This document shows, in pieces, positions 21,852 to 25,840 of a stretch of DNA of 64,000 nucleotides. The notes under the pieces are model-generated. The model was not told the DNA's origin. It did no database searches and saw only the letters and a list, made by a program, of their open reading frames with translations. How positions within the stretch are numbered: position 1 is the stretch's first letter; the number at the start of each line of letters is the position of its first letter. Source of the stretch: Sphingomonas bacterium (lineage in GTDB: Bacteria; Pseudomonadota; Alphaproteobacteria; Sphingomonadales; Sphingomonadaceae); contig NZ_JAQGKZ010000059.1 of the NCBI RefSeq assembly GCF_028289855.1, positions 27,839 through 91,838 of the forward strand, in the 5' to 3' direction. The position numbers and the translations under genes are program-made.

Positions 21852-22016
21852 TCATTTGTTGAACAGCACCGGGCCCCAGACGATCAGCGAGAGGATCCCG
21901 ATCGCCAGCACGATCGAAATGCCGAGGACGTAGCGCATGTGCCCGGATGTTTCACCGGCGCGTGCCTCATCGCCGCTTTCGCGGACCGGCGCGTCTGGAG
22001 ATTCTGGATCAGTCAT
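21852..22016 (-). CDS. Small single-pass membrane protein in the GSR locus
   Basis: 54 residues: a soluble acidic N-terminus ('MTDPESPDAPVRESGDEARAGE') and one helix ('YVLGISIVLAIGILSLIVWGPVLF'). It lies between phyR and ecfG on their strand (gaps of 65 and 82 bases). The start follows a GGGGG tract; the track's earlier start is unlikely. I do not recognise the family. Its position suggests expression with the sigma factor, and it may be an envelope-stress accessory, but no function can be read from sequence. Confidence 0.65.
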   Translation of the reverse strand: MTDPESPDAPVRESGDEARAGETSGHMRYVLGISIVLAIGILSLIVWGPVLFNK

Positions 22017-22024
22017 ATCCCCCG

Positions 22025-22049
22025 AACGCACCAATTCCGTTTTGGCTCC
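22025..22049 (-). promoter_or_regulatory. Possible sigma-EcfG promoter, one mismatch (GGAGC-N16-CGTT)
   Basis: On the minus strand, one base from consensus in the -35 element with correct spacing, directly before the small membrane protein and ecfG. The -10 element is so close to the ATG that a leaderless or very short leader would result, which lowers confidence. If real, it would give EcfG autoregulation. Confidence 0.3.
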
Positions 22050-22081
22050 GTAACCGATGGAACTTCGCTGAAGCCGTGCCC

Positions 22082-22888
22082 TCAAGCAGGAATCGTGCTC
22101 TCGTCGAAGAACAGCGCCTGACTGATCGCTGCCTTCACCGTCGATCGCTGAAACGGCTTGGTGATCAGGAAGGTCGGCTCGGGCCGCTCTCCGGTCAGCA
22201 AACGCTCCGGGAAAGCGGTGATGAAGATCACCGGTACCTGGAATTCGGCGAGGATGTCCTTGACCGCGTCGACCCCCGAACTGTCGTCGGCAAGCTGAAT
22301 GTCGGCAAGCACCAGCCCGGGCCGGTCGGCCATCGCCGAGGCGACCGCTTCGTCGCGAGTTACCGCCACGCCGGTCACGTCATGACCAAGGTCGCGGACG
22401 ATCGTTTCGATATCCATCGCGATGATCGGCTCGTCTTCGATGATCAGGACGCGCGAACGCGTCTGCTTTTCGATCTCGGCGAGCGCGTCGGCGACAAGGC
22501 TTTCGACCTCGTCGCCATCGGCATCGATCAGATAACCGGCATCCTCGGGCGTGAAGCCCTCCATCGCGGTCAGCAGCAGCGCCTGGCGCGACAAAGGAGT
22601 CATCTTCGCGAGCCGCGCGCGTGCGACCGCTTCCTGACCCCCAGTGTCCGACCCGTCATCGCTCAGCGCGACCTCGTCGTCGCGATTGGTGGTGCGCCAG
22701 ATAACCTGGAACGTGCGGTACAATCCCAGGCGCGGATCGACATCGCGCGGAAATTCCTCGGGCGCGGCGACGATCGCCTCGAGCGCGGCGCGGACGTAGC
22801 GGTCGCCATGGTCCTGGCTCCCGGTTAGCGCGCGGCCATAGCGGCGCAGGAACGGCAGGTGCGGTGCGAGTTGCTGACCGAGCGACAT
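22082..22888 (-). CDS. phyR: General stress response regulator PhyR
   Basis: A 268-residue partner-switch regulator. The N-terminal sigma-like domain (about 1-140: 'LGQQLAPHLPFLRRYGRALTGSQDHGDRYV', 'MTPLSRQALLLTAMEGFTPEDAGYLI') mimics EcfG and captures NepR. The C-terminal receiver has acidic residues in 'LIIEDEP', phospho-acceptor Asp196 ('LVLADIQLADDSSG') and Lys244 in 'PTFLITKPF'. Phosphorylation exposes the sigma-like domain, NepR is pulled off EcfG and the stress regulon is switched on. The start is the ATG at 'MSLGQQL'. It is divergent from nepR. Confidence 0.96.
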   Translation of the reverse strand: MSLGQQLAPHLPFLRRYGRALTGSQDHGDRYVRAALEAIVAAPEEFPRDVDPRLGLYRTFQVIWRTTNRDDEVALSDDGSDTGGQEAVARARLAKMTPLSRQALLLTAMEGFTPEDAGYLIDADGDEVESLVADALAEIEKQTRSRVLIIEDEPIIAMDIETIVRDLGHDVTGVAVTRDEAVASAMADRPGLVLADIQLADDSSGVDAVKDILAEFQVPVIFITAFPERLLTGERPEPTFLITKPFQRSTVKAAISQALFFDESTIPA

Positions 22889-22973: not shown

Positions 22974-22998
22974 GGAACAATCGAGAGCGTTTTTGGTT
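22974..22998 (+). promoter_or_regulatory. Probable sigma-EcfG promoter of nepR (GGAAC-N16-GGTT)
   Basis: An exact -35 GGAAC and correct 16-base spacer, with one mismatch in the -10 element (GGTT for CGTT). It lies in the phyR-nepR divergent region about 100 bases before nepR. nepR is commonly autoregulated by EcfG, so the position supports the call. Confidence 0.5.
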
Positions 22999-23096
22999 TC
23001 ACGGGGTGCTGACGCAATTCGTGCGTCGTGTTCGGCTCCGCTTGCGAACCCTTTTCGGTTCCGGCATGGCCGGTTCAGTTTTCGAGGGGGATTGCG

Positions 23097-23264
23097 TTGC
23101 CAGAGCGGCGGTCATCAAAGCGGGGAGGTCCCGGCGACGGTGATGGAAACGGCAAAAAGCTAAAAGACGAAGCGATGGGGACCGCACTACGCACGGTATA
23201 TCATACCGCCGTCAGCGAACCCGTGCCCAACGAAATGCTCGATCTGCTCCGCAAGCTGGATTAG
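23097..23264 (+). CDS. nepR: Anti-sigma factor NepR
   Basis: A 55-residue anti-sigma factor that binds EcfG, or phosphorylated PhyR. The conserved core is 'MGTALRTVYHTAVSEPVPNEMLDLLRKLD' after a charged flexible N-terminus ('PERRSSKRGGPGDGDGNGKK'). I place the start at a TTG because GAGGGGG lies 6 bases upstream and the length then fits the family; the track start lies further upstream in non-homologous sequence. The stop is 3 bases before the phyP start, implying coupled translation of the two negative regulators. Confidence 0.93.
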   Translation: MPERRSSKRGGPGDGDGNGKKLKDEAMGTALRTVYHTAVSEPVPNEMLDLLRKLD

Positions 23265-23267
23265 CCC

Positions 23268-24848
23268 GTGGCTGGGCTTATGGCTGGTGGGCGCCCGGGC
23301 ACATTAAGCGCTCGCCTCGGACGGCTGCCGACCGGACCCAAGATTTTCCTCATTCTGTCGGCGGCGCTGCTGCCGTTCGCGATCATAGCGATTCTGGCGA
23401 CGCTGGCCACCACGCGGCAAGCGGGCCAGGAAGCGCGATCGCAATTGCGCGTCGCGGCGCAGGAAAGTTCACGCAACCTGGCGATCGAACTGGTCGGCGA
23501 CATGACCGCGCTGACCACCGCGATGAACGCGCTCGCCGCCGATCATGCCGACGCGCCGAGTTGCGCACGCGCCCGCGGCGTTTTCGCGCAACAGATTGCA
23601 GCGGGCGCCAGTTTCACCATCAGCGACCGGACCGGTCGATTGCTGTGCGGCACCGCGCCCCCGTTCTCCGTCCCCAACGCCATTGCCGGCGGTCAGCCGT
23701 CGGCGCGCGTGGTGCCGGGCAAAGGCATCGTTCTGGCGATCACCGCCGCCGGCGGGGGTTTGCGCGGAAGCGCGTTCTTCCCGGCAAAATTTCTCAGCGG
23801 CGTCGCCAGGCCGAGCGCGTTCGGGGTCGATTATGCCGAGGTCATCCGCGATCCGGACGGCCAGGAACTCAACCTGCGCACACTCGACCAGGATCGCCCG
23901 CTCGATCGGCATGACTCGGTCAGCGTGCCGCTCAACATTGGTAATTTGACGGCGGTTCTGAATATCAGCAGCAACCCGATCACCTGGCCCATCTTCACCG
24001 CCTTGCTCCTGCCGATCCTGATGTGGCTGGCCGCCGCCAGCCTGGCCTGGCTCGTCGTCGACCGCTTGCTGATCCAGCCGCTGCGCACGCTGCGCGCGCG
24101 GGTGGCGGCCTACCGCCCGGGCGAGGAAATCGCCTCATCCGATGTCCGGTCCTTGCCCGCGCAGGAAATTCGCGAGCTCGGCGAAACCTTTCGCTCATTG
24201 AGCCGCACGCTGATCCTCCACGAGGCCGGCCTCGCCGAGGGGCTGGTGCGCCAGACCAAGCTGACGCGCGAGGTTCACCACCGCGTCAAGAACAACCTCC
24301 AGGTCATTTCCAGCCTGATCAACCTGCACTCGCGCGGGGCGAAGGCGGAAGAAGCGGCGCGCGCGTATTCGTCGATCCAGCGGCGAGTCGATGCGCTGTC
24401 GGTGGTCCACCGCCACCATTTCGCGGAGATGGAGGATCATCGCGGGTTGTCGCTGCGCGCGGTGATCGGCGAACTGGCGTCGAACATCCGCGCGACCAGC
24501 CCGGAAGGGTCGAAGCTGGGCATCCTGCTCGAAGTCGAGCCCTATCTGGTCACCCAGGACAATGCGATCGCGATCGCGTTTCTGCTGACCGAGATCATCG
24601 AGCTGGCGATCGCTATCAATCCCTGCGCGCAACTTCGGCTGTCGGTCCGCGCAGGCGACACGCCGGACAAGGCGATCCTGCGTGCCAGTTCGCCCGGGCT
24701 GATCGAGGGCGACGGGCTGAAAGCGGCGCTCGACCAGCGCTACGCCCGGGTGATGGAAGGGCTGTCACGCCAATTGCGCGCGCCGCTGCACCACGATCCG
24801 CTCGCCGGCGCGTATGAAATTGCGATTGCGATTACCGGAAAAGACTGA
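23268..24848 (+). CDS. phyP: PhyP-like HisKA_2 membrane protein with degenerate ATPase domain
   Basis: 526 residues: TM1 about 26-48, an extracytoplasmic sensor (about 50-240), TM2 about 241-268, a HAMP-like linker ('LLIQPLRTLRARVAAYRPGEE') and a HisKA_2 dimerisation domain with the phospho-site in 'REVHHRVKNNLQVISSLI' (His337/338). The ATPase region is degenerate: the N-box is replaced by 'LLTEIIELAIAINP' with no Asn, and no DxGxG or G2 glycine loop is visible. That fits PhyP of Sphingomonas, a negative regulator acting as a PhyR phosphatase rather than a kinase. GTG start; ATG at 23280 is an alternative. Confidence 0.85.
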   Translation: MAGLMAGGRPGTLSARLGRLPTGPKIFLILSAALLPFAIIAILATLATTRQAGQEARSQLRVAAQESSRNLAIELVGDMTALTTAMNALAADHADAPSCARARGVFAQQIAAGASFTISDRTGRLLCGTAPPFSVPNAIAGGQPSARVVPGKGIVLAITAAGGGLRGSAFFPAKFLSGVARPSAFGVDYAEVIRDPDGQELNLRTLDQDRPLDRHDSVSVPLNIGNLTAVLNISSNPITWPIFTALLLPILMWLAAASLAWLVVDRLLIQPLRTLRARVAAYRPGEEIASSDVRSLPAQEIRELGETFRSLSRTLILHEAGLAEGLVRQTKLTREVHHRVKNNLQVISSLINLHSRGAKAEEAARAYSSIQRRVDALSVVHRHHFAEMEDHRGLSLRAVIGELASNIRATSPEGSKLGILLEVEPYLVTQDNAIAIAFLLTEIIELAIAINPCAQLRLSVRAGDTPDKAILRASSPGLIEGDGLKAALDQRYARVMEGLSRQLRAPLHHDPLAGAYEIAIAITGKD

Positions 24849-24884: not shown

Positions 24885-24900
24885 AAAAAATGCATTTTTT
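24885..24900. promoter_or_regulatory. AAAAAATGCATTTTTT perfect palindrome before the sRNA promoter
   Basis: A 16-base perfect palindrome of A and T tracts ending 3 bases before the GGAAC -35 element. It stands out in this high-GC DNA. It could be an UP element for the promoter, a nucleoid-protein site or part of a terminator for phyP. Confidence 0.45.
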
Positions 24901-24903
24901 CTG

Positions 24904-24928
24904 GGAACCGCATCGCGAAAGGGGCGTT
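24904..24928 (+). promoter_or_regulatory. Sigma-EcfG promoter GGAAC-N16-CGTT
   Basis: A perfect match in both elements and spacing, inside the GSR locus, with an A/T tract directly upstream and a structured, terminator-ended RNA directly downstream. Convergent tatC ends at 25067, so there is no protein gene for it to drive. Confidence 0.8.
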
Positions 24929-24934
24929 TTCATT

Positions 24935-25034
24935 CTCGGATAGCGAATTTATGCCCCCCCGCTCTCGCTATCCAAGACATAGGCCCGGCAGCGCACCCCT
25001 CCCCCCCGGTAGCGCTTCCGGGCCTAAATCTTTT
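24935..25034 (+). ncRNA. Putative stress-induced small RNA with two C-rich loop hairpins
   Basis: About 100 nt from the expected start 7 bases past the -10 element. Hairpin 1: GGATAGCGA / TCGCTATCC (9 bp) with an 18-nt loop containing CCCCCCC. Hairpin 2: AGGCCCGG / CCGGGCCT plus AGCGC / GCGCT across one mismatch, with a 17-nt loop containing CCCCTCCCCCCC. It is followed by AAATCTTTT, so hairpin 2 doubles as a rho-independent terminator. C-rich loops that pair with Shine-Dalgarno sequences are a known design in alphaproteobacterial sRNAs; Caulobacter GsrN is a stress-sigma-controlled example. No ORF is present. Ends are predicted, not measured. Confidence 0.7.
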
Positions 25035-25066
25035 CCGGCCTCTTCAGATGCTCGACGGTCGAGCGA

Positions 25067-25840
25067 TCAGGCGGCGGTTTCGCTCGCCTCGGTCCGCGCG
25101 CGCCGGCGATGCGTCAGCCAGATCGCGACCAGCGTCAAATAATAGAGCACCACCAGCGGCGACGCGAGCATGATCATCGATCCAGCATCGGGCGGCGCGA
25201 GGAACAGCGCAATCGCGAAGCAGCCGAGGATGGCATAGCGCTGCGCCTTGACCAGTTGCTTCAGCGTGACGATCCCGGCGCGTTCGAGCAGCATCAACAG
25301 CACCGGCAACAGGAACGCGATGCCGAACCCCATCAGGAACTGCATGACGAACGACAGATAATTATCGACCGACGGCAGCGCCTCGCGATCGACCCCGCCG
25401 ACATTGCCCTGATAACCGAGCAGGAAATGGAGCGCGCCGGGGATCGCGACGAAATAGGCCAGGCACGCGCCCGCCCCGAACAGCAGCGGCGTCGCCAGCA
25501 GAAACGGCAGCAGCGCGCGCTTTTCCTTGCGATACAGGCCAGGTGCGACGAACTGCCACAACTGGTTGGCGATCACTGGGAACGACAGCATTATCGCGGC
25601 GAAGAATGCAACCTTGAGCTGGACGAAGAATGCTTCGAACAATTGCGTATAGATCAGCTTCGATTGCCCCGCCTTGAGCAGCGGGCGCACCAGGATGCCG
25701 AAAATCCATTCGGAGAAATAAAAGCTGAGCGCGAACATCGCCGCCAGCGCCAACAGGCTGAACAGCAAGCGGCGGCGCAACTCGATCAGATGATCGAGCA
25801 GCGGCGCGCGGCTCGCGTCGATGGTGTCCTCGTCGCTCAC
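25067..25840 (-). CDS. tatC: Sec-independent protein translocase subunit TatC
   Basis: Six-helix core of the twin-arginine translocase that binds RR signal peptides. It has the N-terminal 'PLLDHLIELRRRLL' motif, 'FFVQLKVAFFAA', 'YFVAIPGALHFLLGY', and conserved 'QFLMGFGIAFLLPV' and 'TLKQLVKAQRYA'. 257 residues is standard. The start overlaps tatB's stop by 4 bases. It is the last gene of a long minus-strand operon from argS and converges on the stress sRNA. Confidence 0.97.
   Translation of the reverse strand: MSDEDTIDASRAPLLDHLIELRRRLLFSLLALAAMFALSFYFSEWIFGILVRPLLKAGQSKLIYTQLFEAFFVQLKVAFFAAIMLSFPVIANQLWQFVAPGLYRKEKRALLPFLLATPLLFGAGACLAYFVAIPGALHFLLGYQGNVGGVDREALPSVDNYLSFVMQFLMGFGIAFLLPVLLMLLERAGIVTLKQLVKAQRYAILGCFAIALFLAPPDAGSMIMLASPLVVLYYLTLVAIWLTHRRRARTEASETAA

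Follow-up and report, generated by a model that had tools for sequence, protein, structure and literature searches.

The sequence directly downstream of phyP harbours, as judged by the pattern of its conservation, a real and conserved sRNA family of sphingomonads. This sRNA is very probably transcribed by the stress sigma factor EcfG and, by analogy, probably constitutes the sphingomonad counterpart to GsrN of Caulobacter, encoded beside the genes that govern the general stress response (GSR) and blocking or tuning mRNAs by means of two C-rich loops. Sphingomonads are one of the main models in which this response is studied. If the assignment is correct, GsrN-like regulation would extend to an order in which none had been recognised.

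Genomic position, promoter and fold

In the window, by which we mean the whole 64-kb stretch of DNA analysed, the RNA is situated on the forward strand between phyP (phyT; 23268–24848, forward strand), assigned by Pfam as an HWE/HisKA_2 kinase-like GSR regulator, and the convergent tatC (25067–25840, reverse strand; Pfam). As Pfam also confirms ecfG, phyR and nepR within the same locus, the placement directly behind phyP and inside the GSR locus given in the initial annotation holds. Both phyP upstream on the same strand and convergent tatC downstream recur in 62 of 88 loci each, and at least one of these two neighbours is present in 77 of them. Between ecfG and phyR we observe, in addition, a small open reading frame of 77 codons (21852–22085, reverse strand) whose translation contains one hydrophobic, membrane-like stretch.

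The predicted promoter matches the EcfG-type motif exactly (24904–24928, forward strand), with GGAAC at 24904–24908, a spacer of 16 nucleotides and CGTT at 24925–24928. GGAAC-N16-CGTT occurs once in the window, while 0.48 exact matches are expected by chance; the initial annotation, which had reckoned with about one, was right in considering the motif alone to be weak evidence. Throughout the genome from which the window is taken the exact motif is not enriched, as 18 sites are found compared to 49 for the reversed control. Hence, the motif as such proves nothing, and the evidence for the promoter consists in its conservation. GGAAC-N16/17-NGTT is present in 81 of 84 distinct homologues, where it ends 8 to 12 nucleotides ahead of the first stem, the distance amounting to exactly 9 nucleotides in 65 of these 81. 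The mean pairwise identity of the spacer is 0.29, which corresponds to chance level, compared to 0.75 for the stem. Since the boxes are kept while the spacer between them drifts, selection acts on the two boxes of the promoter as well as on the interval separating them. This motif has also been derived from EcfG-dependent genes of Sphingomonas melonis Fr1 (PMC6599016) and S. granuli TFA (PMC7083833).

The predicted transcript comprises about 99 nucleotides (24936–25034, forward strand), its start being deduced from the promoter spacing and the edge of conservation, its end from a T-tract. The block conserved in blastn alignments begins sharply at about position 24936, i.e. at the expected transcript start. 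Hairpin 1 (24938–24973) consists of a stem of 9 bp, in which GGATAGCGA (24938–24946) pairs with TCGCTATCC (24965–24973), and of the loop ATTTATGCCCCCCCGCTC with seven consecutive C at 24954–24960. Hairpin 2 (approximately 24980–25026), which would also serve as the stem of an intrinsic terminator, is made up of stems of 9 and 5 bp and of the loop ACCCCTCCCCCCC (24995–25007), which exposes the C-run CCCCTCCCCCCC; it is followed by the T-tract TCTTTT (25029–25034), and a T-rich tail is found in most homologues. The calculated minimum free energy amounts to -48.1 kcal/mol (z = -7.2) and none of 200 shuffled sequences is equally stable. The two stems with C-rich loops ahead of TCTTTT, as described initially, are confirmed. 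A simple terminator scan did not pick up hairpin 2 because its loop exceeds the limit of 8 set in that scan.

Conservation and covariation

Of 401 Sphingomonadaceae genomes sampled, 124 give matches by blastn. With a covariance model derived from 30 loci, the RNA is detected in 163 of these 401 genomes and in 43 of 96 genera, the number of genomes being a lower bound because few candidates are scored in each genome. Hairpin 1 occurs in identical form in named records which include Sphingomonas, Sphingosinicella, Stakelama, Hephaestia and Sphingomicrobium.

Across the 84 distinct homologues 96.1% of the stem cells of the alignment hold standard pairs, compared to 32–41% if the pairing partners are slid against each other. 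Two-sided changes are seen in each of the 24 main-stem pairs, nine of which belong to helix 1 and 15 to the main helix in hairpin 2, and the number of two-sided cells amounts to 305 compared to 66 in shuffles; these pair counts are flattered, as the alignment of the 84 homologues was fitted to the covariance model. In an unfitted MAFFT alignment of 30 loci, two-sided changes are already found in 13 pairs. In the distant homologues L093 and L097 most of stem 1 is replaced, yet the pairing is intact. While the letters of the stems change, the C-runs are nearly invariant. A run of at least six C is present in loop 1 of 83 of the 84 homologues, with exactly seven C in 62 of them, and the conservation of this loop extends past the C-run (UUUUGCCCCCCCGCUC). 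Loop 2 is likewise rich in C in 83 of the 84 homologues, of which 44 have CCUCC in this loop. The initial annotation had named uncompensated losses of promoter, stems or C-loops at homologous loci as evidence against an sRNA; the search for such losses yielded retention of the promoter in 81 of 84 homologues, compensation in all 24 pairs, and a run of at least six C in loop 1 and a C-rich loop 2 in 83 of 84 each.

In the genome from which the window originates the RNA is single-copy, a search for a second copy having returned none. Second or third copies away from the phyP–tatC position are seen in genomes G343 (L091 and L092), G219 (L093), G227 (L094) and G013 (L096 and L097). Among these displaced copies the EcfG-type promoter is kept in L093, L094, L096 and L097, while L091 carries the variant GCAAC and L092 has none.

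The pattern of conservation bears on two readings which do without an sRNA and which we reject on its account. The position between the convergent phyP and tatC genes and the T-tract that ends hairpin 2 would be in line with a mere terminator of the nepR–phyP operon preceded by a chance promoter. For a terminator, however, hairpin 1 and a promoter at fixed distance are superfluous, yet both have been kept over 84 species. Furthermore, copies located elsewhere possess both hairpins together with the promoter (L093, L094 and L097, also L095, L098 and L099), which fits a free-standing RNA gene rather than a leader or a mere terminator; we consider the terminator reading very improbable. Still more remote is a gene for a small protein. 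The initial description of these about 100 nucleotides as devoid of open reading frames needs to be amended, as a frame of 63 codons (24951–25142), beginning with ATGCCCCCC, overlaps them, but this frame is not conserved. Most homologues have TTTTGCCCC at this place and hence no ATG, the variable length of the C-run breaks the frame, and the changes observed track stem pairing.

Proposed function and candidate targets

We consider it likely that the RNA is a free-standing, trans-acting sRNA of the general stress response which acts via its C-rich loops on mRNAs. Capture of NepR by PhyR would free EcfG, which would then transcribe the sRNA from the separate promoter that follows phyP and stop at hairpin 2. 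The two hairpins would present two single-stranded C-runs able to pair with G-runs of mRNA leaders, for the most part where ribosomes bind, and thereby alter translation or stability. Two near-equivalent loops may allow several targets per RNA or provide redundancy. Base pairing with G-rich leaders and repression by the C-loops in the manner of anti-Shine-Dalgarno sequences are both suggested by analogy with studied sRNAs. Pairing over a Shine-Dalgarno site would repress the mRNA, and repression at G-rich Shine-Dalgarno sites seems the likelier default, while some leaders may be activated as is katG by GsrN. The loops alone do not give the sign of regulation, since GsrN activates katG, its best-known target. 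It is plausible that through the sRNA EcfG also represses mRNAs, given that in a ΔecfG mutant of S. melonis 33 genes are up without known direct cause (PMC6599016). A conserved EcfG-driven sRNA would, if true, supply a direct post-transcriptional arm of the stress response.

Two other modes of action have to be weighed against predominant repression. A GsrN-like activator, the C-loop of which opens or stabilises the leaders of protective genes of the katG type with repression playing a minor part, has the nearest functional precedent on its side, since GsrN activates katG via a G-tract in its leader (PMC5869019). Yet, the CCUCC of loop 2, found in 44 of 84 homologues, forms the core of the anti-Shine-Dalgarno sequence that the ribosome itself carries, and the G-run of nepR described below is located at the ribosome-binding site, both of which fit repression better; we regard activation as the principal mode as possible, but rather less likely. 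That the RNA does not pair with mRNAs at all but serves as a decoy titrating either the 30S subunit or a protein that binds RNA appears improbable to us, even though two similar hairpins with near-invariant loops resemble protein-binding decoys and loop 1 is kept beyond its C-run. Those RNAs with a comparable architecture that have been studied, GsrN and B11/6C, use C-loop pairing with G-tracts, and we know of no alphaproteobacterial protein with such a specificity.

With respect to targets of the trans-acting sRNA, within 2.4 Mb of the close relative G207, taken in stretches, 13 leaders contain a G-run of at least seven nucleotides compared to 14 with a C-run in the control, hence no genome-wide target signal. 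Candidates from this relative, named from their sequence as a metallo-hydrolase, TonB-dependent receptors and a CpaC-like secretin, are unsupported. The gene of the CpaC-like pilus secretin (L289:16380–18116, reverse strand) features a run of seven G about 10 nucleotides ahead of its start and may be a possible target.

A further candidate target site is located within the GSR locus itself. The nepR–phyP operon is preceded by an EcfG-type promoter, GGAAC-N16-GGTT (22974–22998, forward strand), at a distance of 123 nucleotides from the start of nepR, the product of which is recognised as NepR by Pfam. The putative ribosome-binding site of nepR (23083–23099, forward strand, including the TTG start codon at 23097–23099) comprises a G-run (GAGGGGGA). 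In 71 of 85 sphingomonads nepR appears to start with TTG or GTG, mostly behind a G-run ribosome-binding site, and in most of these 85 species such a G-run appears to take the place of the canonical GGAGG. A run of at least five G within 22 nucleotides of the nepR start is present in 50 of 85 species, compared to 8.0% of the G207 genes under the same rule and to 3 of 64 for phyR, 1 of 65 for phyP and 0 of 66 for tatC in loci of the same kind. The calculated energy of pairing with loop 2 places the nepR leaders at the 11th percentile in the median, with 48% of them in the best decile (17% for shuffled leaders). All of these nepR statistics have to be read in view of the relatedness of the species, of the choice of one gene out of five after inspection, and of a start rule which favours G-runs.

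From these observations nepR emerges as the best lead, rather than a finding, with regard to targets of the sRNA. We put forward tentatively, and with clear doubt, a feedback loop in which the sRNA made by EcfG covers the G-run ribosome-binding site of nepR and thereby lowers the synthesis of the anti-sigma factor, perhaps also that of PhyP/PhyT. This reading is prompted by the G-run sites and TTG or GTG starts in most of the 85 nepR genes and by data from Caulobacter, where nepR mRNA is enriched together with GsrN and contains the predicted site GGGGGGCG (PMC5869019). Despite this co-purification, the authors observed no effect of GsrN on sigma-T/NepR in Caulobacter (PMC5869019). If true, feedback via nepR would render the stress response sharper or longer-lasting.

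Comparison with known sRNAs

A comparison with Rfam, at both gathering and relaxed thresholds, yielded sub-threshold look-alikes only, no family reaching its threshold. We found no description of this RNA in the openly accessible literature, subscription papers and preprints lying outside that search, and the main texts of the transcriptome papers on S. melonis (PMC6599016) and S. granuli (PMC7083833) mention no sRNA. Searches of class-wide samples with models of this RNA outside the family, in which few candidates were scored per genome, gave weak matches and no convincing relative. The best match, L243 (G525:C15:30657–30755; E = 4.5e-5), while the others mostly correspond to the terminator hairpin, comprises two hairpins with C-rich loops and a terminator but no EcfG promoter and is possibly an unrelated C-loop sRNA.

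The architecture resembles that of 6C RNA/B11 of Actinobacteria (RF01066), which likewise consists of two hairpins, each with about six or more C in its loop (PMC10470900). B11/6C represses eccB4, the leader of which holds a six-G tract, and either C-loop suffices (PMC10470900). The 6C family, however, belongs to another phylum and has a promoter different from that of the sphingomonad RNA; its model finds no match in the window and the best homologue attains 35.1 bits compared to a cut-off of 47. Convergent architecture likely explains the resemblance. Within the Alphaproteobacteria, ar14 and other sRNAs of Rhizobiales (RF02344, PMC3927594) share anti-Shine-Dalgarno loops and variable stems with the RNA described here, and those with CCUCCUCCC loops have been interpreted as anti-Shine-Dalgarno RNAs (PMC3927594). 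In contrast to their three or four CCUCCUCCC loops, the sphingomonad RNA has two loops with longer C-runs, and the ar14 model scores 19 bits in the window and at best 31.5 among 14 homologous loci, compared to a cut-off of 58.8. The enterobacterial sigma-E sRNAs MicA and RybB (PMC8103513) are similar in concept only, as the repressing arm of an otherwise activating sigma factor; they show no relation in sequence or structure, and their targets are mostly outer-membrane proteins.

The closest likeness is to GsrN of Caulobacter crescentus, and we describe the sphingomonad RNA as GsrN-like in function, claiming neither homology to GsrN nor membership in 6C. BLASTn homologues of GsrN are confined to Caulobacteraceae, and the outgroup Erythrobacter litoralis is without an apparent gsrN-like gene (PMC5869019). 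The C-rich 5' loop of GsrN pairs with the katG leader, which raises KatG, and 31 of its co-purifying partners hold G-rich sites (PMC5869019). Just as this loop is directed against G-tracts of mRNAs, hairpin 1 of the sphingomonad RNA exposes a run of at least six C in 83 of 84 homologues. GsrN is driven directly by an EcfG-type stress sigma factor, as is predicted here, and gsrN resides by ecfG, nepR and phyR in most Caulobacteraceae (PMC5869019), the sphingomonad RNA being found at the stress locus as well. It differs from GsrN, however, in possessing two C-rich hairpins, the second of which is the terminator, and in its placement between phyP and tatC.
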